This document shows, one piece after another, positions 29,543-42,237 of a stretch of DNA of 64,000 bases (position 1 is the stretch's first letter; every line of letters starts with the position of its first letter). The notes below the pieces were generated by a model. The model was not told where the DNA came from. It was given only the letters and a program-made list of their open reading frames with translations, and did not search any database. This DNA is from a bacterium (GTDB lineage: Bacteria; CAIWAD01). The stretch spans positions 1 to 64,000 of the forward strand of contig JAUXWS010000013.1 in the NCBI GenBank assembly GCA_030685015.1. Direction: 5' to 3'. A program made the position numbers and the translations under genes.

Positions 29543-31209
29543 CACGCCGGCCCACCCTCATCCTCGTCCTGCTGGTCGCCCTGGCCACCTTGCCACTTCC
29601 GGCCGCGAACCGGGCGCCGGACCGGGACACCTACATGCGCCAGGTCCACGACAACCTGGTCCGCTTTGGCGAGGTCTACCGCAACCTGGCCTTCCGCTAC
29701 GTGGACCAGATCAACCCGGAGGCGGCGATGACGGCCGCCATCCGCGGCCTGATGGACGAGCTGGACCCCTACTCGGACTACTATCTGGAGGAAGCGGCGC
29801 AGGATCTGGACGACATGTCGCGCGGCCAATACGGCGGCATCGGGATGGAGGTGGGCCTGCGCGGCTCCGACAAGCGCGTCACCGTGATCAGCCCCTTCGA
29901 GGGCTCGCCCGCCTGGAAGGCCGGCCTCCTGCCGGGCGACGAGATCGTCACGGTGGACGGCGCGCCGGTCACGGGCAAGGCCCTGTCCGACGCCGTCCGC
30001 CTCATCAAGGGCGAGGTCGGCACCAGCGTCACCCTCGGCATCCGCCGCGCCGGCGCCAAGGAGGTGCAGGACTACACCCTGACCCGGCAGTTGATCGCCA
30101 TCCAGGACGTCAAGTTCGCCGAGATGACGGACCCCGCCACCGGCACGGGCTACATCCGGCTGGCGCGTTTCTCCGGCCAGGCGGGGGAGGATCTGGCGGC
30201 CGCCCTCGAGCAGCTCAAGGCCCAGGGCATGCGCCGCCTGGTGCTGGATCTGCGCGGCAACCCGGGCGGCCTCCTGCGCGAGGCGGCGGCCGTTGCCGAG
30301 CTCTTCCTTGAGCAGGGCCAGACCATTGTCGTCACCCGTGGGCGCAACCGCGAAGTGATCAAGGAAATCCAGAGCACGCGGGCGCCGGTCTTCCGCGGCG
30401 AGATGGCCGTGCTCATCGACGGCGGCAGCGCCAGCGCCAGCGAGATCGTGGCCGGCAGCCTGCAGGACCACGACCGCGCCGTCATCGTGGGAGAGCAGAG
30501 CTTCGGCAAGGGCCTCGTGCAAAGCGTGCTGGACCTGGACGACGAGGCCAAGGTCAAGTTGACCACCGCCCGCTATTACCTGCCCTCCGGCCGCCTCATC
30601 CAGCGCATCGACTACTTCGAGGACAACGAGGTGCTGGACCACCTGGCCGACTCCACCCTGGCCGACACCCTCTTCCAGACGCTGGGCGGCCGCCAGGTGA
30701 TCGGCGGGCGCGGCGTCAGCCCGGACGTGGAGGTCCAGGCGGAGCGCCAGCCCTGGGTCGTGCTGGAGTTGTGGCGGGGCGCCCATTTTGTCAACTATGT
30801 CGCAGATCGCACCGCCGCCGGTTACGCCTTCCCGCCCACCAGCGATGACCGCCTCCTGGACGATTTCCAGGCCTATCTCGACGAGCAGGAGTTCCAGTTC
30901 CAGCCGCGGGGCACGGTCCAGCTGGATGAACTGGACAAGATCCTGGCGGAGGATGAGGCAGGTGAGGCGGGCCGCCGGGCGCTGGCCGCCTTGCGCGCCG
31001 TGATGGCGGATAACCTGGCCCAGCAGTTCAAGGCCCATGGGGAGGCCATCTCCCGCATGCTGGATCTGGAGCTGGTCAGCCAGCGCGAGGGCCAGACGGC
31101 CCGCGCCCGGGAGGCCCTGCGCCACGACGAGGCCTACCGGCAGGCCATGGCGCTGCTGGCTTCATCGTCCGGCGAGTATGAGCGCGCCCTGGGCCTGCCG
31201 GGCAGATGA
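29539..31209 (+). CDS. S41 family C-terminal processing peptidase
   Basis: A 556-residue exported serine protease. It has a signal peptide (about 1-24), a PDZ domain (about 95-175; G-I-G-M-E-V, then L-L-P-G-D-E-I-V-T-V-D-G), then the tail-specific protease core with catalytic Ser in G-G-S-A-S-A-S-E-I-V-A-G (about 295-306) and Lys in G-E-Q-S-F-G-K-G-L-V-Q (about 317-327). The C-terminus is longer than in minimal CtpA and is helical. It trims C-termini of periplasmic or outer-membrane proteins. ATG overlaps tmk by 4 nt. Confidence 0.92.
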   Translation: MTRRPTLILVLLVALATLPLPAANRAPDRDTYMRQVHDNLVRFGEVYRNLAFRYVDQINPEAAMTAAIRGLMDELDPYSDYYLEEAAQDLDDMSRGQYGGIGMEVGLRGSDKRVTVISPFEGSPAWKAGLLPGDEIVTVDGAPVTGKALSDAVRLIKGEVGTSVTLGIRRAGAKEVQDYTLTRQLIAIQDVKFAEMTDPATGTGYIRLARFSGQAGEDLAAALEQLKAQGMRRLVLDLRGNPGGLLREAAAVAELFLEQGQTIVVTRGRNREVIKEIQSTRAPVFRGEMAVLIDGGSASASEIVAGSLQDHDRAVIVGEQSFGKGLVQSVLDLDDEAKVKLTTARYYLPSGRLIQRIDYFEDNEVLDHLADSTLADTLFQTLGGRQVIGGRGVSPDVEVQAERQPWVVLELWRGAHFVNYVADRTAAGYAFPPTSDDRLLDDFQAYLDEQEFQFQPRGTVQLDELDKILAEDEAGEAGRRALAALRAVMADNLAQQFKAHGEAISRMLDLELVSQREGQTARAREALRHDEAYRQAMALLASSSGEYERALGLPGR

Positions 31210-31991
31210 GGCCGGCGCCTCCCGACGACGACGGCGGCCCGATCGTCCTCCTGGACTTCGATGGAACGATCACGCGTGATCGCGCCGGGAATCCGATCGT
31301 CTTCCTGGACTTCGATGGCACCATCACGGTGGACGACACCCTGGTCCTCCTGCTGGATCGCTTCGGCCGGCGGCTGCCCGACGGCCGGGACTGGCGGGCG
31401 ATCGAATTCGACGACAGCCTGCCCGAGCGGGTGAAACTGCAGGCCGAGCTGGACCTGCTCGAGGTCGGGCTGGACGAGGCGCTGGCCTGGCTGGACGGAG
31501 CCAGCCGGCTGCGTCCCGGCTTCGCGGATTTCCTGGCCTGGGCGGGGCGCCACGGCCTGCAGCCCACCGTGCTCAGCGGCGGCCTCCTGCCCATCATCGA
31601 GCACGCCCTGGGACCCTTGCGCCGGGAACTGCACGCCATCCACGCCAACGACCTGCGCCTGGAGTCGGGCCGCTGGCTGGCCCTGCCTCCCGCCACGCCC
31701 CGCCTGCGCGGGTTGTGCAACCACTGCAAGACCTGGCACCTGCGCGAGGCCGCCGCGGCCCGGCGGCCGGTCATCTATATCGGCGACGGCAGCACGGACT
31801 TCTGTCCAGCGCGCGAGGCGGACCTCGTCTTCGCCCGCTCCTCCCTGGCCACACAGATGGAGGGCGAAGGGAGAAGCCATCTCCCCTTCGTTACCTTTGC
31901 CGACGTGATCCGGCGGCTGGAAGGGCTGACCCTCCGTCCGGAATCGTCCGGCCAGGCCCTGGGCCGGGCCAGGGGCCAGTCAGGCCGCTGA
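31206..31991 (+). CDS. HAD-superfamily phosphatase with tandemly duplicated motif I
   Basis: A 261-residue HAD hydrolase resembling MtnX/SerB-type (subfamily IB) phosphatases: motif I D-F-D-G-T-I-T, then L-S-G-G (about 119-122) and G-D-G-S-T-D-F-C (about 196-203). Motif I occurs twice: P-I-V-L-L-D-F-D-G-T-I-T (about 12-23) and P-I-V-F-L-D-F-D-G-T-I-T (about 30-41), from a direct 54-bp repeat. The second copy has normal spacing to the rest of the domain, so it is probably the catalytic one. ATG 31206 overlaps the protease stop (ATGA). Substrate unknown. Confidence 0.8.
   Translation: MRPAPPDDDGGPIVLLDFDGTITRDRAGNPIVFLDFDGTITVDDTLVLLLDRFGRRLPDGRDWRAIEFDDSLPERVKLQAELDLLEVGLDEALAWLDGASRLRPGFADFLAWAGRHGLQPTVLSGGLLPIIEHALGPLRRELHAIHANDLRLESGRWLALPPATPRLRGLCNHCKTWHLREAAAARRPVIYIGDGSTDFCPAREADLVFARSSLATQMEGEGRSHLPFVTFADVIRRLEGLTLRPESSGQALGRARGQSGR
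31239..31330 (+). repeat. 54-bp-period tandem duplication inside HAD gene
   Basis: The stretch beginning CCGATCGTC at 31239 recurs at 31293 with period 54 nt, so the frame is kept. About 33 bases match with three differences, two of them synonymous. It duplicates exactly the catalytic motif I region. Confidence 0.85.
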
Positions 31992-34839: not shown

Positions 34840-35973
34840 TCAGTCGGATTCCAGGCGCCAGCGCAGTCCCAGGCCGGCACGCAGCACCTCGAAATCCTTG
34901 ACGCGGGAGATGCCGCCCCAGGCCGCCTCGCTGTCCCGCCACTCGCGCTCCACCACCGGGATGAGGGTGAGGGAGGCGCCAAGGGCGAGGCGTCCGCGCA
35001 GGCTGAGCAGGATGCGGCGGTCGTGGCGGCCGTAGTGGAAGGGATCCTGCAGCTCGCCCAGGCGGCTCTGGTACCAGCGGTCGCGCAGGGTCAGCCCGGC
35101 GTCCAGGCCGGCCGCCCGCGTTCCCCAGCGGCCGCTCCAGCCCAATGAGAGGCTGTACTGGTCCTCCTGGTGGCTGCCGTCGCCGCCTTCGCTGTCCACG
35201 CCCAGATTCACCGTGCCCACGCCCTGGCTCCCCGTGTAGCCCACATTGTGGGTGTCGCTGAAGCGCCAACCCAGCCCGGCGCTGAGGCCGGCCGGCATGC
35301 GCCAGCCGAGGTCCAGACCCAGGGACCACGCCTCCCCGTCATACTCGGTGAACCAGGGATTGTAGGACTCCCGGTCCCAGGCCGCGCTGAGCGAGAGGCC
35401 CGGCTGGCGCAGCCAGGGTCCACGATCCGGGCCGCGGGCCTTGAGCACCAGCTCGATCTGGTCGCTGTCGAAGGTGGCGCCCCGTTCGGCGCCTGTGTCG
35501 CGGTCCAGGAAGCGGCGGATGTAGTAGTTGTCCAGGGTGCGCCAGTTCAGCTCCGTGCCCCAGCCAGGGCGGGGCTGCCAGGCGCCGCTCAGCCGGTGGC
35601 TGGCGTAGGTGTTGGCCGGGCTGCCCTCGTACTGTGTCCACTTGCCGTCCCAGCTCAGGCTGAGACGACCCTGGCCGGGGCGGCCGCCCGCCCATCTCTG
35701 CAGGGCGGCGAAGGGCCCCTGGCGGGAGCGCAGGCGCCACTGGAGAGCGAGGCCCAGGCGGTGGTCGACCCGCAGGGCGCCCGCCCCCTCCACATCCGGC
35801 TGGAAGGAGGGGTCCCGTTTCAACCGGCTGCGGTCGCTGTCCGACAGGCGCAGGATGTTGTCGTCGGCGACCAGGCGCTCCTCAAGGCTGATCGTCCAAT
35901 CCGGCGCATGCCAGGCGGCCATCGCCGGCAGGGCGATCGCCAGCAGGGCGATGAGATGCAGGACGCGCCGCAC
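34840..35973 (-). CDS. predicted outer-membrane beta-barrel of the pgs cluster
   Basis: A 377-residue protein not matched to a named family. It has a cleavable signal peptide (L-I-A-L-L-A-I-A-L-P-A-M-A, about 7-19) and then alternating hydrophobic/polar strands rich in W, Y and G up to the C-terminus (L-R-W-R-L), as in outer-membrane porins. It starts at GTG 35973, directly after the preceding stop. It is the last of five leftward genes beginning with pgsB, which suggests a role in moving poly-gamma-glutamate across, or fixing it to, the outer membrane. That role is inferred from context only. Confidence 0.65.
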   Translation of the reverse strand: MRRVLHLIALLAIALPAMAAWHAPDWTISLEERLVADDNILRLSDSDRSRLKRDPSFQPDVEGAGALRVDHRLGLALQWRLRSRQGPFAALQRWAGGRPGQGRLSLSWDGKWTQYEGSPANTYASHRLSGAWQPRPGWGTELNWRTLDNYYIRRFLDRDTGAERGATFDSDQIELVLKARGPDRGPWLRQPGLSLSAAWDRESYNPWFTEYDGEAWSLGLDLGWRMPAGLSAGLGWRFSDTHNVGYTGSQGVGTVNLGVDSEGGDGSHQEDQYSLSLGWSGRWGTRAAGLDAGLTLRDRWYQSRLGELQDPFHYGRHDRRILLSLRGRLALGASLTLIPVVEREWRDSEAAWGGISRVKDFEVLRAGLGLRWRLESD

Positions 35974-35974
35974 C

Positions 35975-36943
35975 TCAGCTCCCGCTGTGGCGCAGGGCTT
36001 CGCGGGGCATGAGGAAGCGCAGGTTCACCTCGCGCCCGCTGTCCTGGAACTTCACGGCATACTGGTGGCGGCCGGCCGGCACCTCGATGTAGATGACCTC
36101 GCCGCGGGCCGGCATGGTGTTGTCCTTGCCCACGTAGGTGGCCGCGGTGCTGCGCCGTCCGCGCAGGACCCAGGTGTTCTTCAGGAGGCCGTCCTCATGA
36201 ACTTTGAGCTGGTATTTCTGCTGGCCCGTCATCGTGGTGTTCCAGTCCAGCCGGCTGATCACCTTGACGACGGTGGGACCCGTCACATCCAGCTGCAACT
36301 CGGAGCCGGAGGCCAGCACCTGGTAGGTGGCGCGCTTGTCCTGGACGGCGATGTTGCGCGTGGCACCGCCGCCCCGGGGCAGCAGGTCCACCGTGCCGCC
36401 CTTGGGCATGGGCTGCAGGGCCTTGGATTGCAACCGGAGGAACACGTTCTCCGAGAGCAGGCCCTCCGTCTGGAAACTGATGTCGTGCGTGCCGTAGGGG
36501 ATGCGGATCTCCTCGGTGATCGAGGCGGAAAGACGCGGCCACTTGGCGGGGGTGGCGAACTCGGGCGCCTCCTTGGGCGGTTGCAGGTGGACCGTGCGGG
36601 AGCGGACCATGGGCAGGCGCAGGGTGCCGCCCGGTTGGCCGTCCAGATTCCAGGAGATCAGGTTCTCCTTGCCTTTGAGCTTGCTGCGCCAGGGGGCGCG
36701 TGCCACCACGCGGAGCACGGCCGGCCCGTTGACGGAGGCCTTCATCGCGCCGCCCTTGTCCAGTTGCCAGTAGACCCGCGCCTTGCCGTCCACATCCACC
36801 ATGGCGCGCTTGGCGCCCTTCACGGTGCGGACGTTGACCCAGGCCGCGCCGGCCATCCCCGCCACCAGCAGCAGCGCCAGCAGCGCCCAGGGCAGGCGGG
36901 CGGCCAGCCGCCGTCCCGCTCCGGCACCCGATCGGTTGATCAT
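35975..36943 (-). CDS. periplasmic protein of the pgs cluster, unknown family
   Basis: A 322-residue protein with a single N-terminal membrane segment (P-W-A-L-L-A-L-L-L-V-A-G-M, about 18-30) and a beta-rich periplasmic domain. Internal similarity is visible: several segments contain V-x-V-I-S/V-A-R-x-x-W followed by K-G-K/T-G-Q and a W/V-L-R-G-type strand, so the body may be two or three related beta-sandwich modules. ATG 36943 has GGAGGAG upstream. It lies between pgsW and the outer-membrane barrel gene, a position fitting a periplasmic link between the two membranes (inference). Confidence 0.6.
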   Translation of the reverse strand: MINRSGAGAGRRLAARLPWALLALLLVAGMAGAAWVNVRTVKGAKRAMVDVDGKARVYWQLDKGGAMKASVNGPAVLRVVARAPWRSKLKGKENLISWNLDGQPGGTLRLPMVRSRTVHLQPPKEAPEFATPAKWPRLSASITEEIRIPYGTHDISFQTEGLLSENVFLRLQSKALQPMPKGGTVDLLPRGGGATRNIAVQDKRATYQVLASGSELQLDVTGPTVVKVISRLDWNTTMTGQQKYQLKVHEDGLLKNTWVLRGRRSTAATYVGKDNTMPARGEVIYIEVPAGRHQYAVKFQDSGREVNLRFLMPREALRHSGS

Positions 36944-37036
36944 GTCTCCTCCTTCGTGCTCGCGCCCGCCCCACGCCTGGTCCGGACATGTCCTTCATGG
37001 CCGGCCCGTCTTCATCGGCCGGGGCGGCCCTGGTCA

Positions 37037-38173
37037 TCAGATGTGTTCGTCGGGTCCGGCCGGCATCTCCCCCAGACGCTGCATGCGCAGATCGAAGCGG
37101 ATCACCAGGAGCACCATCACCGCCATGATCGCCACGGCCAGACCCACCACGCGCAGGTCATAGCGCTCCTCGGCGAACATGCTGCCCTCGCCGGGAAGGG
37201 GCACGTGCCCGGGCCGCCAGGGAATGCCGTGCTTCTTCAGCATGGCGGCGAACTTCGACGGCACGTACTTGAAGTTGATGATCGAGACGCCGTTGTCCGA
37301 GAAGTGGTGCACCACGCCCTTGGCCGGATAACTGTCGTCCTGCAGATGTCGCGTGTAACCCAGCGGGATGACGTGCGCGTTGTCCGGGTGGCCCAGGCTG
37401 ACCACGCCGCCGCCGATGTTGATGTAGGCCCGGTAGCCGCGCAGGGACTCCCGCACCGCCTCCCGGTAGACCCGGATGCGTCCGTCCACCGCCTGCTCAA
37501 GCGATTCCGGATTGAGATAGCCCACGCCGTTGCGCTCGATGGCGGCCCGCACCAGGGCGCGCCCCTCGGGCGAAAGGCTGCGGCCGCGGTCGTCGGCGCC
37601 GCCGATGGAGGCGGCCACGCTGCGGAAGGTGATTTGTCCGTTGTCGACCAGCACCTTCTCCATGTCCAGCCAGGTGAAGTCGGGGTCATTGGCGCCGTAC
37701 CAGGAGCTGGAGACGCTGGTGATGATGACCGGTTCCAGCTCCAACACGCGGCAGGCGGCATAGGCGGCCAGGTTGAGCCCGGGGAAGGAGCCGGTCACCC
37801 CCAGGGCCACCTTGTCGCCGCGCTCGAGGCCCGCCTCCTTGAAGATCTGGACCATCATGGCGGCGGTGTTGGGATTGGTGGTGGCCAATTTGGCCTGGTG
37901 GTTGCCGTCCGTGGAGGTGATGGGCGTGTGCTTCTGGCCGATGAGCAGCGTGCGGTCCGGGTCGTTGACCTCGTCCACGAAGGCGGCGGCGGGGGCCTTG
38001 GCGTCCCGCAGGATGCCAATCCAGCTCTCCATCAGGCGGGCGGCGGCCAGTTTCTCCTCGTGATGGGGCCGCTTGACGGGGACACGGCTGCGCTCGGCCC
38101 AGTTGTAGAGCCCGTAGGCCATCAAGGCCAGGACGACCAGGGTCCAGATCGACTTGAGACTGGGCTTAAACAT
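37037..38173 (-). CDS. pgsW: poly-gamma-glutamate system protein PgsW
   Basis: A 378-residue protein with one N-terminal helix (about 10-24), a large extracytoplasmic domain, and one helix near the C-terminus (about 345-363). The sequence includes the distinctive G-V-T-G-S-F-P-G-L-N (about 126-135), S-S-S-W-Y-G-A-N-D-P (about 155-164) and I-N-I-G-G-G-V-V-S-L-G (about 249-259) stretches that I recognise from PgsW proteins, which accompany PgsB and PgsC in Gram-negatives. Its biochemical role is not known to me. Starts inside the pgsC 3' end (8-nt overlap). Confidence 0.8.
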   Translation of the reverse strand: MFKPSLKSIWTLVVLALMAYGLYNWAERSRVPVKRPHHEEKLAAARLMESWIGILRDAKAPAAAFVDEVNDPDRTLLIGQKHTPITSTDGNHQAKLATTNPNTAAMMVQIFKEAGLERGDKVALGVTGSFPGLNLAAYAACRVLELEPVIITSVSSSWYGANDPDFTWLDMEKVLVDNGQITFRSVAASIGGADDRGRSLSPEGRALVRAAIERNGVGYLNPESLEQAVDGRIRVYREAVRESLRGYRAYINIGGGVVSLGHPDNAHVIPLGYTRHLQDDSYPAKGVVHHFSDNGVSIINFKYVPSKFAAMLKKHGIPWRPGHVPLPGEGSMFAEERYDLRVVGLAVAIMAVMVLLVIRFDLRMQRLGEMPAGPDEHI

Positions 38174-38618
38174 GGAAGATTTCCCCCCCCGTCACGAGCA
38201 TGAGCAGCAGCCGCACGCAGGAGGCCACCAGCAGCAGGCAGAGCAGGGTCTTGACCACGCCCTGCTTGTCCATCCAGTTGGAGATGAGGCCGGGGATGAT
38301 GAAGCCCACCGCCTGCATCTGCAAATCCACGCCAAAAAGGTCGTAGAAGGTGGACTGCCGGGAGAAGTAGCCCAGCACGAAACCGATGAGGATGGAGAGG
38401 ACGAGGCGGCGCCGGCCGTAGATGAACATCACCAGGGAGAGGCCCCGGATGATGCCGAAGGTGGCGAAGCTGACAAGGAAGGTGCCCAACAGGCGCAGGG
38501 GATCGTGCATCTGCAGGGCCACGTAGCCGGGCACGACGATGCCGCCGGCCGAGACGCCGATCACCTCCTGGAAGATCATGCTGAGGATCACTCCCAGGCC
38601 GACGCTGATTTCGATCAT
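38166..38618 (-). CDS. pgsC: poly-gamma-glutamate synthase membrane subunit PgsC
   Basis: A 150-residue protein of four to five membrane helices, with the conserved opening G-L-x-L-S-x-x-x-x-E and G-G-I-V-V-P-G-Y (about 25-32) and the central R-R-x-x-L-S-I-L-I-G-F (about 70-80). It partners PgsB in the membrane-bound synthase. ATG 38618 overlaps pgsB (ATGA). Length is normal for PgsC/CapC. Confidence 0.9.
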   Translation of the reverse strand: MIEISVGLGVILSMIFQEVIGVSAGGIVVPGYVALQMHDPLRLLGTFLVSFATFGIIRGLSLVMFIYGRRRLVLSILIGFVLGYFSRQSTFYDLFGVDLQMQAVGFIIPGLISNWMDKQGVVKTLLCLLLVASCVRLLLMLVTGGEIFHV

Positions 38619-39781
38619 GCCGCACTCCTGTCGCGGAAGTAATGGGCCACCTCATGACCGCCGCCGTGGACGTTGCCGATCCCCATCACCGTCATGACGG
38701 GGAAGGGCAGGTTGATCACGGTGTTGAAGGTCAGCTCCGGATGGACCGTCCCCAGATTGACCACCTTCTCCTGGGGCAGGCCCATGCGGTAGCAGACGCC
38801 CAGCAGCTTGTCCGTCACCTCGCCGATGAGGATGAGGCGCTCCCAGGCCGTGTCCTGGTGCACCATCTCCACCAGCTGCTCGCTGCGCTCGAAGCGGTCC
38901 TTGCGGGTGTTGAGGATGAAGACGGTGGCGCCGGGGTTGTCCTGCACGCCCGTCACGCGCTGCCAGATGGCCAGCGTGCTCTCGGGGTCGTTGGCGGCCA
39001 GCGCGTTGACGAAGGTGACGTGGCGTCCCTCGTGCTCCAGGCAGTACTTCTTGAGGGCGCCGCAGTCCGGCGCCGCGCGGTACATGCCCTCCAGCGCCAC
39101 CTCCCGCCCGATCCCGACCTGGGCGGCGACAGCCAGGGCCAGGGCCACGTTCTCCTTGTGCTCGATGTAACTGAAGGGGCGCATGTCCTCGTCGCTCACG
39201 TCGTGGTCGACCACCTCGTGGAGGACGGTGCCGCGCTGGGCGGCCTCCCGCTTCATCAGGGCGAAGAGCTTGTGCTCGCAGGTGAAGGCCACCTTGCCCA
39301 CGGGCAGCGTGTTGCAGAGGCTGCGCGCCACGTTCTCCACGGTGGGGCCCATCTCCCGCAGGTGGTCGGGCCGGGCGTTGGTGATGACCCCGATGGTGGA
39401 GCGGACCATGCGGTGCTCGGCGATCCACTGGTACTCCGGCTGGACGGCCATGCATTCGATGACCAGGGCGCGGGGCCCACGACGGGCGGCATAGGCGACG
39501 ACGCGGGTCTGCTCGATGATGTTGGCCCCGCGCGGCCGGACGATGGGAATCTCGGAGCCGTCCTCAAGGATGACCTGCGGCGCGCTGCCCGTGGTCTTGG
39601 CGATGGTGGCCAGGCCCCCCGCCCGCAGGGCGCCGGCGACCAACCGCGTGACGCTCGACTTGCCGCGGGTTCCGTTGACGTGGATGCGAATGGGAATGGA
39701 GCGGAGGTGCCGCTGATGCCGCCTATACTCGAAAATGCCCAATGCGATGATCAACAAAAGCAGCAAAGCGATGATGGTCAT
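38615..39781 (-). CDS. pgsB: poly-gamma-glutamate synthase ligase subunit PgsB
   Basis: A 388-residue ATP-dependent amide ligase of the Mur-ligase/FPGS type that polymerises glutamate through gamma-amide bonds. After an N-terminal membrane anchor (M-T-I-I-A-L-L-L-L-L-I, residues 1-11) come the P-loop H-V-N-G-T-R-G-K-S-S-V-T (about 34-45), T-N-A-R-P-D-H-L (about 133-140) and N-A-L-A-A-N-D-P-E-S-T (about 263-273). I start at ATG 39781, where the anchor begins; a longer frame adds an unrelated Pro/Arg-rich stretch. It is the first gene of the pgs operon. Confidence 0.92.
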   Translation of the reverse strand: MTIIALLLLLIIALGIFEYRRHQRHLRSIPIRIHVNGTRGKSSVTRLVAGALRAGGLATIAKTTGSAPQVILEDGSEIPIVRPRGANIIEQTRVVAYAARRGPRALVIECMAVQPEYQWIAEHRMVRSTIGVITNARPDHLREMGPTVENVARSLCNTLPVGKVAFTCEHKLFALMKREAAQRGTVLHEVVDHDVSDEDMRPFSYIEHKENVALALAVAAQVGIGREVALEGMYRAAPDCGALKKYCLEHEGRHVTFVNALAANDPESTLAIWQRVTGVQDNPGATVFILNTRKDRFERSEQLVEMVHQDTAWERLILIGEVTDKLLGVCYRMGLPQEKVVNLGTVHPELTFNTVINLPFPVMTVMGIGNVHGGGHEVAHYFRDRSAA

Positions 39782-40260: not shown

Positions 40261-40377
40261 GACAGAATCTCGTGGAAAGGTCGGGTGATGAAGCCACCAC
40301 ACCGGCCATCGCAAAGCCGCTGACCCGCTGGCGCAGGGGTGCTTGGTCAAGCGGCAGCAACGCGGCGTTGGCCCGCC
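40256..40377 (+). repeat. partial relative of the 54.5-kb repeat
   Basis: Begins at the right end of palindrome copy B and aligns with 54549-54668 (same strand), sharing GTGGAC-x-GA-x-TCTCGTG, GTCGG-x-TGATGA, GGCGCAG, GTCAAG and GCAACGCGGCG in the same order with only short gaps. The far inverted end seen at 54767 is missing here, so it looks truncated. Confidence 0.65.
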
Positions 40378-40393
40378 GGCTGCGGGAAAGCCA

Positions 40394-40423
40394 TTGTCGG
40401 ATTGACACTTGGCCTTATCTTTG
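40394..40423 (+). promoter_or_regulatory. two-box promoter (TTG-N19-TATCTTTG)
   Basis: TTG (40394-40396), 19 nt, TATCTTTG (40416-40423). The second box fits the full TAnnTTTG consensus known from Bacteroidota. It lies 86 nt before ATG 40510 and would drive the secreted protein, LegB-like and phosphopantetheinyl transferase genes. Confidence 0.55.
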
Positions 40424-40509
40424 CGTTGGTCTCAACTGGCGCCGGAACGCCGGCCCTCGCCACGGACCGGCCGACGGGCGCGGCGCGACAGAAAAGGATA
40501 TGGGATCTC

Positions 40510-42237
40510 ATGGCGGTCAAGATGTCAGGAGTGGTCCAAGGGGTCCATCGCGGCTTGCTGCTGCTCTTCCTCTTGGCCACAGCCGCTTTCGCCATGCCCG
40601 TTCCGGCCCCGCCCAGCCAACCTGTTCCCGTGGGATACCTGGCGGACCGCACGGGGCAGCGCGACGACGCCCTGCTCTGCTACCACGCCGACGCCGCCTA
40701 CTTCGTCAAGCTGCCCCATCCCCTCTTCGGCAACCAAGGCCTCCTCTACCAGCGGGTCACCCCCGGCGCCTCCGGCCACATGAACGCCTTCGAACTTCGT
40801 CTTTACAACAACTATCCAGGCTCGGTCCGCCATGTGGGCATCCTCAGCCTGACCGTCCACCGGCGCGTGGGCGGCCTGCCCGGACCCTTCGAGCAGATGG
40901 TCAGCCTGGACGCCGACACGGTGGGCAACACCATCCTCACCCTGCCGCTGGACACACCCTTCCCCTTCTCCCTGGGCGAGGAGTTCTATCTCGGCCTGGC
41001 CTTCCAGCCGGCCGCCTCCGTGGACACGGTGGCCTATGTCACGGCCTCCCTGGGCAGCTACAGCGGACACTCCTTCTTCCTCATGAGCAACCAGGTGATG
41101 TGGTGGGGGGATCAGCTGGGCACGCCCTTCGGCGACATGCATTACTGCGCCGACGTGTGGCTGGACAACACGCAGGCCCATCTGCACTTCCCCTGGACCC
41201 AGCTGGACCTGGGTCGCGGCCGGGCGGGACACCCCCTGGAGCTGGAGGTGCCGCTCATCAACCAGGGCACCGGTCCGCTCATCGTCAACCAGGCCAGTGT
41301 GGCCGGACCGGACTGGTCCTGCCGCTTGGTGGGTCCGGACAGCCTCATGCCGCCCGACACGCTGCTGCTCTGCCTCGCCTGGAACGCCCCCCAGGTGGAC
41401 ACCGTCTCCACCAGCCTGCTCACGCTGCAGAGCAACGCCGCCAACGAGGCCAACCGGCAGCTGACCTTGAACGCCGCCTCCAGCACGGCCGACCTGCTGC
41501 TGGCCGATTGGGACGAGTGGGACGTGGCCACGGCGCAGCTGGGGGCCGAGGGTCCGGCCACCGGCAACTGGAGCCTCTACCGCGGCCTGGGCCGCCCGGA
41601 ACCGTTCATGGGGCACAGCATGCCGGCCGGCGGCCTTGTCGTCCAGGACATCCTTTACCTGCGCGGCCTGTTCCTGAGGCAGGGCGACCAGTTGCGCCTG
41701 CGCTGGGCCCAGTACCAGCGCAACCGCAGCGCCATGGTGCAGCATGCGCTGGCTTGGCGGGATCCCCTCACCGCGCAGTGGCAGGTCCTGGCCGAGCCGG
41801 ATCTGGGCAGTCCGGATTGGCTCGGTCCGGAAGGGGAGTGGTTCACCGTGCCCTGGCACACCTGGACCGCCCCCAGCACGGGTCTGCATGATCTGGGTCT
41901 GCTCTATGGCGGGACCAACGCGGTGGACATGTGGTTCATCGACGACCTCGAGGTTGATCTGCTCGCCCCGATCCAGGCGCCGGAGCTGCGCATCCACGCC
42001 TTCTGCGGTCATGCCCTCCTTCTGTGGAATCCCGTGCTGGGGGCCGAGTACTACCGCATCGAGCGGGTGGACCGCACGCCCCATCAGGTGCTGGGCCACA
42101 CCGCGACCTGCGCCTGGACCCATCGCCACGCCCTGCGGCTGGGCCGCGCCCAGTACCGGGTGATCGCTGTGGGCCGGGACGAGGCGGGAGCGCCGCCGCC
42201 GCCCATGCCCGTCATGTGGGAAGCGGAGGATCCGTGA
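40510..42237 (+). CDS. large secreted protein of unknown function with C-terminal fibronectin-like module
   Basis: A 575-residue exported protein. I start at ATG 40510 because a signal peptide follows at once (G-L-L-L-L-F-L-L-A-T-A-A-F-A, about 16-29); a longer frame runs into repeat DNA. The body is beta-rich: a first domain with D-A-D-T-V-G-N-T-I-L-T-L-P-L (about 137-150), then an abnormal-spindle-like or choice-of-anchor type segment (L-I-N-Q-G-T-G-P-L-I-V-N, about 250-261) and a last module W-N-P-V-L-G-A-E-Y-Y-R-I-E-R (about 505-518) typical of fibronectin type III. It lacks a recognised sorting signal. Overlaps the next gene by 1 nt. Confidence 0.7.
   Translation: MAVKMSGVVQGVHRGLLLLFLLATAAFAMPVPAPPSQPVPVGYLADRTGQRDDALLCYHADAAYFVKLPHPLFGNQGLLYQRVTPGASGHMNAFELRLYNNYPGSVRHVGILSLTVHRRVGGLPGPFEQMVSLDADTVGNTILTLPLDTPFPFSLGEEFYLGLAFQPAASVDTVAYVTASLGSYSGHSFFLMSNQVMWWGDQLGTPFGDMHYCADVWLDNTQAHLHFPWTQLDLGRGRAGHPLELEVPLINQGTGPLIVNQASVAGPDWSCRLVGPDSLMPPDTLLLCLAWNAPQVDTVSTSLLTLQSNAANEANRQLTLNAASSTADLLLADWDEWDVATAQLGAEGPATGNWSLYRGLGRPEPFMGHSMPAGGLVVQDILYLRGLFLRQGDQLRLRWAQYQRNRSAMVQHALAWRDPLTAQWQVLAEPDLGSPDWLGPEGEWFTVPWHTWTAPSTGLHDLGLLYGGTNAVDMWFIDDLEVDLLAPIQAPELRIHAFCGHALLLWNPVLGAEYYRIERVDRTPHQVLGHTATCAWTHRHALRLGRAQYRVIAVGRDEAGAPPPPMPVMWEAEDP

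Follow-up and report, generated by a model that had tools for sequence, protein, structure and literature searches.

Comparison With Known Poly-Gamma-Glutamate Systems

The known components of poly-gamma-glutamate synthesis come from monoderm Bacillus and end at the inner membrane. Here we describe a five-gene locus, pgsB-pgsC-pgsW-ORF322-ORF377 (the last two being open reading frames, ORFs, named by their length in residues), found in a stretch of 64,000 nt of contig JAUXWS010000013.1 (assembly GCA_030685015.1, GTDB lineage CAIWAD01), below referred to as the window. The source genome is a 3.6 Mb draft, the G+C content of the window is 69%, and the phylum is represented by five genomes in the searched set. 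Predictions place poly-gamma-glutamate systems in most bacterial phyla, including many diderm ones (PMC5542703). The poly-gamma-glutamate capsule model of CapsuleFinder was built on the monoderm Bacillus anthracis, with CapB and CapC as mandatory and CapA, CapE, and CapD as other components; it has no outer-membrane component, and its authors point out that in diderms crossing of the outer membrane requires one additional protein or more (PMC5542703). The CapBCA system of Francisella, for which a role in forming the capsule is disputed, includes CapA (PMC4688374). Fusobacterium nucleatum is cited, in a reference given in PMC4928254, as the first Gram-negative producer of poly-gamma-glutamate. 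Candidate genes for the passage of the polyanion over the diderm periplasm and outer membrane were not found in the literature searched, nor was a paper using the name PgsW for the protein considered here, subscription journals and preprints being outside this search.

Like PgsBCA/CapBCA of Bacillus, the locus encodes PgsB (TIGR04012) and PgsC (TIGR04011), both above the family cut-offs and corresponding to the mandatory CapB and CapC of the CapsuleFinder model; PgsA/CapA, CapD/PgdS, and PgsE are absent from it, and PgsW and two envelope genes, ORF322 and ORF377, are present instead, the latter two not being part of that model. The synthase part of the locus is known. The functional likeness to BcsB–BcsC (cellulose) and PgaA (poly-N-acetylglucosamine) consists in the combination of an inner-membrane synthase, periplasmic beta-domains, and an outer-membrane barrel; a barrel gene adjacent to the synthase, a trait of PgaA/BcsC-type exporters, is present at the locus. 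Unlike those systems, it has no recognised tetratricopeptide repeat (TPR) region or glycosyltransferase, its barrel has 14 strands, the expected polymer is a polyamide, and there is no sequence relation. The 14-stranded porins CymA and OmpG are similar to ORF377 in barrel size and fold (TM-score by query about 0.45–0.5), but have 8–12% identity to it, function in uptake, and lack linkage to a polymer synthase. EpsL (XrtB/PEP-CTERM-associated, TIGR03014) is, like ORF377, a barrel encoded in a polymer locus, the loci being otherwise unlike.

Taken together, the data presented below suggest, with a probability of roughly 70%, that the five genes form one trans-envelope poly-gamma-glutamate module of diderm bacteria, with the ORF322–ORF377 pair as the export route.

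Organization of the Locus

All five genes lie on the minus strand. The ligase gene pgsB (38615–39781) encodes 388 aa and scores 422.8 bits with the TIGR04012 equivalog model (cut-off 222.7); pgsC (38166–38618; 150 aa), encoding the membrane partner of the ligase, scores 119.3 bits with TIGR04011 (cut-off 96.45) and matches Pfam Caps_synth_CapC (5.5e-32); the poly-gamma-glutamate system protein gene pgsW (37037–38173; 378 aa) scores 283.4 bits with TIGR04332 (cut-off 100). The identification of these three proteins in the sequence-only reading, made without database searches, is thus borne out by curated NCBIfam cut-offs. Hydropathy of PgsW indicates a soluble domain preceded by a hydrophobic stretch at the N-terminus and followed by a strong transmembrane segment at the C-terminus; a profile search with it found no relative of solved structure. 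Further downstream are ORF322 (35975–36943), encoding an exported protein with two beta-sandwich domains, a candidate for periplasmic polymer handling judging from its model, profile comparison and gene order, and the GTG-initiated ORF377 (34840–35973), encoding a predicted 14-stranded outer-membrane beta-barrel with a signal peptide, a candidate conduit given its model, structural matches and adjacency to ORF322. The first three genes overlap (pgsB/pgsC by 4 nt, pgsC/pgsW by 8 nt), pgsW and ORF322 are separated by 93 nt, and ORF322 and ORF377 by 1 nt, this last spacing being as initially noted.

As the gene beyond ORF377 is on the opposite strand, the same-strand run ends there; the neighbours on either flank being oppositely oriented, the five genes constitute a self-contained run. 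In agreement with the initial observation that no PgsA- or PgdS-like gene follows, the locus encodes no PgsA/CapA (PF09587), PgdS-like, CapD, or PgsE protein. Total absence of a PgsA-type domain from the genome was considered and rejected: a PGA_cap (CapA/PgsA) domain is part of an exported, 983-aa multidomain protein encoded elsewhere (L056:421-3372; contig C28 of the source genome G000, about 36212-37096). It is not linked to pgsBCW; the PGA_cap domain occurs in 5/5 genomes of the phylum and is unlinked in the four relatives as well. TPR repeats were not matched in the locus by Pfam or NCBIfam, the periplasmic part being a beta-sandwich.

For ORF322 and ORF377 no meaningful match to Pfam, NCBIfam, or PDB profiles was obtained, even via homologues, all matches being at the chance level; this agrees with the earlier impression that neither belongs to a nameable family.

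Conservation of the ORF322–ORF377 Pair

Loci of relatives, of low and high GC alike, were read using a simple ORF and codon-position caller and not a trained gene finder, so that gene starts are approximate. In the home phylum, all five genomes carry a single copy of ORF322, with the barrel gene next to it wherever the contig reaches. Two genomes (G003, G004) retain the order pgsB-pgsC-pgsW-322-377; in G002, pgsBCW is followed by a contig end inside the ORF322 homologue; and in G001, from a different family, a contig starts inside the ORF322 homologue and continues into the barrel homologue. As identities of both proteins to those of the window drop to 28–29% in G001, the gene order has outlasted much sequence change.

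A PgsW profile scan of 84,980 species genomes yielded 31 loci. The ORF322 and ORF377 families are found downstream of pgsW in metagenome-assembled genomes (MAGs) labelled Latescibacterota, Fibrobacter, and Gemmatimonas (a single phylum according to the search tool) and in a marine MAG placed with Calditrichota (L025), as well as, with differences described below, in Flavobacteriia (replaced barrel) and WOR-3 (fusion). A search of the 22 genomes behind the PgsW loci with the ORF322 profile added MAGs labelled Calditrichota, Melioribacteraceae, and KSB1, and genome G022, all with the same order as far as the contigs extend. In total, linkage of the pair to pgsBCW is conserved across at least five phyla; its absence in relatives would have spoken against the coupling proposed initially.

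In Calditrichota (the phylum of G023), 37 of 39 genomes have ORF322, 37 have the barrel, and 35 have the uninterrupted chain pgsW-322-377. The chain is split by contig ends in G041 and G056, the barrel of G024 runs off the contig, and, contig breaks excepted, the barrel adjoins ORF322 in every case. Three ORF322 copies have no PgsW before them, one being at a contig split and the others being additional to a first copy in G043 and G031. Neither member of the pair is found in G025 and G058, which show one TIGR04332 protein each, its length being typical of the kind linked to gamma-glutamyltranspeptidase (GGT), see below. In the genome paper of Caldithrix abyssi, a search by terms returned no mention of a capsule or a gamma-glutamyl polymer.

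Latescibacterota (the phylum of G006, 80 genomes) provide a better test, because the distribution there is patchy. The barrel is found in 26 genomes, and PgsB above the cut-off also in 26; both are present in 25 genomes and neither in 53, with one genome having the barrel alone (with PgsW adjacent) and one, PgsB alone (Fisher test, 1.8e-18, uncorrected for shared ancestry). This count leaves out a marginal match in G085 (7e-4). In all 17 genomes (out of the 25) where both genes are on one contig, the barrel starts 2.5–3.2 kb downstream of PgsB. Among 297 evenly sampled genomes of the Bacteroidota phylum, searched with ORF322 alone, seven have this gene; all six new loci have the order pgsW-322-377, with pgsC also visible upstream in five.

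Fusions of ORF322 and ORF377

In WOR-3, pgsW is directly followed by a single gene encoding a protein of 535–654 aa, in which ORF322-like domains precede the barrel; comparison of profiles of the fused and separate forms yields probabilities of 98.8% and 98.3%. G022 has one free-standing ORF322 homologue and, after it, another copy that forms a fusion with the barrel. In an 11-member clade of Latescibacterota and at two more loci in this phylum, the barrel, encoded downstream of a separate ORF322 gene, is extended at its N-terminus by a beta-domain whose match to the ORF322 profile is often weak (E from 6e-3 to 1e-7). In the barrel tree, fusions occur in at least three separate lineages. That these neighbours have fused repeatedly argues strongly for ORF322 and ORF377 working together.

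Predicted Structures of ORF322 and ORF377

The AlphaFold2 (AF2) model of ORF322 (predicted local distance difference test, pLDDT, 85) consists of two beta-sandwich domains, approximately at residues 43–182 and 188–314, preceded by a hydrophobic N-terminus (residues 13–39) modeled with low confidence. The description of this protein in the sequence-only reading as periplasmic and beta-rich with a membrane anchor thus holds for the beta-rich, exported part; the anchor was set aside on inspection of homologues, and the N-terminus is better read as, probably, a signal peptide with cleavage at LLVAGMAGA^AWV, an interpretation for which homologues from Bacteroidota, starting like MKVFTLFFALLFSTTSLVFGQKS, are cited. 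The two halves of ORF322 are an internal duplication (98.6% and E 5.8e-16 by hhalign, against at most 0.3% in each of ten column shuffles), each half carrying a GP--(V/L)-V--R motif and a P-G-H motif. In Foldseek searches tandem carbohydrate-binding modules come first, with BcsB, the periplasmic cellulose-synthase subunit, ranking lower; as the whole-chain TM-score is just 0.2–0.3, these matches speak for a fold class and not for a relationship.

The ORF377 model (pLDDT 88, predicted TM-score 0.83) is a barrel of 14 strands, as expected from the outer-membrane assignment made initially. Its best Foldseek matches in PDB are CymA, OmpG, other porins, and the barrel of PgaA (TM-score about 0.4–0.5), and the matches also include BcsC; profile search against PDB found no porin, so that the likeness to CymA and OmpG is that of fold. 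Neither model shows an enzyme, and neither falls into a known family of porins. There is no polysaccharide-export Pfam match, and the protein is a beta-barrel and not a helical pore, which separates it from the OPX/Wza capsule exporters. One ORF377 homologue weakly matches the EpsL polymer-export family (TIGR03014, 2e-4), ORF377 itself having no match.

As assigned by strand parity, the net charge of inward-facing strand residues ranges from 0 to +19, being positive in 11 of 12 homologues. The residues R103, R153, and R346 are invariant and face inward by this assignment; further conserved residues, N39, D265, H313, R316, and K359, are in loops. The predicted inward charge would suit an anionic chain.

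A Second PgsW Locus

A locus of another kind encodes GGT, a PgsW paralogue (TIGR04332; PgsW2), a DctM-like permease, and an AstE/AspA-like enzyme. It is present in the window's genome (L018:10060-15391, contig C73 of G000) and at L019, L020, and L021, as well as L043 and L046–L049, and is conserved in the family of this genome and in Calditrichota. It looks like a locus for breakdown or remodelling of a gamma-glutamyl polymer, with a relative of PgsW functioning there in the absence of PgsB and PgsC. Its assignment to the same system was rejected, as it has never been seen with the ORF322–ORF377 pair.

A separate observation concerns L044 (3069-8493), from a MAG labelled Eubacteriales, where permease-like and, judging by eye, AstE-like genes directly precede pgsB-pgsC-pgsW; this arrangement would unite both kinds of PgsW loci at one place.

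Possible Mechanism and Alternative Explanations

Given gene order, co-occurrence, and repeated fusion, it is close to certain that ORF322 and ORF377 belong to the pgsBCW module. The initial proposal that they perform the periplasmic and outer-membrane steps is supported by the same observations; the direction of export, the substrate, and the order of steps we infer. PgsB and PgsC would polymerise glutamate at the inner membrane and push the polymer outward; PgsW, with its soluble domain held by membrane segments, may stand in for PgsA of Bacillus. ORF322, shaped like tandem carbohydrate-binding modules, would bind or guide the polyanion through the periplasm and dock on the barrel. The presence of an ORF322-like domain on the barrel's own chain in WOR-3, Latescibacterota, and G022 fits direct docking. 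ORF377, with its net positive inward face and three invariant arginines, would then be the outer-membrane exit for the chain.

By their gene order, co-occurrence, and fusions, the ORF322 and ORF377 families make export of poly-gamma-glutamate in diderms directly testable and provide a marker for its true producers among uncultured diderms. In a broader form, to which we assign slightly less than even odds, the locus would encode a complete and as yet undescribed trans-envelope machine secreting a gamma-linked polyamide, in which PgsW substitutes for PgsA, a protein of two beta-sandwiches in tandem is the periplasmic carrier, and a dedicated 14-stranded barrel serves export; this machine would be near-universal in the Calditrichota envelope (37/39). 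Poly-gamma-glutamate would then be a core surface polymer of this phylum and not an optional capsule.

Several observations weigh against the proposed export role. Four genomes, labelled KSB1 (L040), Mailhella (L041), Deltaproteobacteria (L042), and Eubacteriales (L044), have pgsBCW and lack the pair; that of L042 (G019) has weak matches only, in large proteins encoded elsewhere. The PgsB proteins of L040, L041, and L044 are also the most divergent. Eubacteriales are mostly monoderm, and the genome with this label may need no outer-membrane step; the Mailhella, Deltaproteobacteria, and, probably, KSB1 genomes do need one, and must either use another route or have PgsB in a different role. In four Flavobacteriia (L028:12026-13559, L029, L030, L031) ORF322 is followed by a lipoprotein gene and a barrel gene in which homology to ORF377 is not detectable. 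The top PDB matches of ORF377 are mostly uptake porins (CymA, OmpG, chitoporin). The charge argument derives from strand parity and not measured pore geometry, has no control barrels behind it, and one homologue is at net 0. Finally, production and secretion of poly-gamma-glutamate in these organisms are predicted from genes alone.

For the flavobacterial barrel, homology to ORF377 was tried and failed (hhalign 0.2%); it is possible that the lipoprotein and this barrel replace the outer-membrane part.

The similarity of the barrel to uptake porins such as CymA, together with the presence of the GGT-PgsW2-permease-AstE locus in the window's genome and its relatives, could point to the opposite direction of transport, with ORF377 as an uptake porin and ORF322 as a periplasmic binding protein in import or recycling of gamma-glutamyl oligomers, feeding GGT, the DctM-type permease, and the AstE/AspA-type enzymes. 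We consider this improbable: the pair goes with the synthase genes and was never observed with the GGT locus, which favours export over uptake, and Calditrichota G025 and G058, showing only the GGT-type PgsW, lack the pair. Less improbable, though still unlikely, is that the pair anchors or displays the polymer, ORF322 holding poly-gamma-glutamate and ORF377 serving as an outer-membrane anchor or assembly platform, a diderm counterpart of anchoring of the CapD type, with the chain leaving via another pore. The resemblance of ORF322 to tandem polymer-binding modules and the fusion of a binding domain to the barrel would suit such an anchor, but the conserved locus contains no other candidate outer-membrane pore gene, and the barrel has an inward strand face that is polar and net positive, as expected for a conduit.

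We give a similarly small chance to a different product, another gamma-linked polyamide or a short oligomer. PgsB is a relative of Mur ligases, to our knowledge no relative of this clade has a proven product, and PgsA is absent from the locus; still, both PgsB and PgsC are well above the cut-offs of the poly-gamma-glutamate synthase equivalogs. As the route would be the same, this possibility overlaps with export of poly-gamma-glutamate by the pair. That ORF322 and ORF377 are envelope proteins of unrelated function hitch-hiking in the operon, in line with the lack of a match of either to a polymer-linked family above the cut-off, is very improbable and already contradicted, since it cannot explain the cross-phylum gene order, the co-occurrence in Latescibacterota, and the fusions.

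Other Genes of the Window

A divergently transcribed gene adjoining pgsB (40339-42234) encodes an exported protein of 632 residues with no Pfam match; a gene of similar size is found at the matching place in L014 and L016. At 31206-31340, the N-terminus of a phosphatase similar to the haloacid dehalogenase (HAD) family has VLLDFDGTITRDRAGNP and, after it, VFLDFDGTITVDDT, a near-repeat that looks like a duplication of the gene start; the homologue in G003 (L014:2426-3097) has a single copy.

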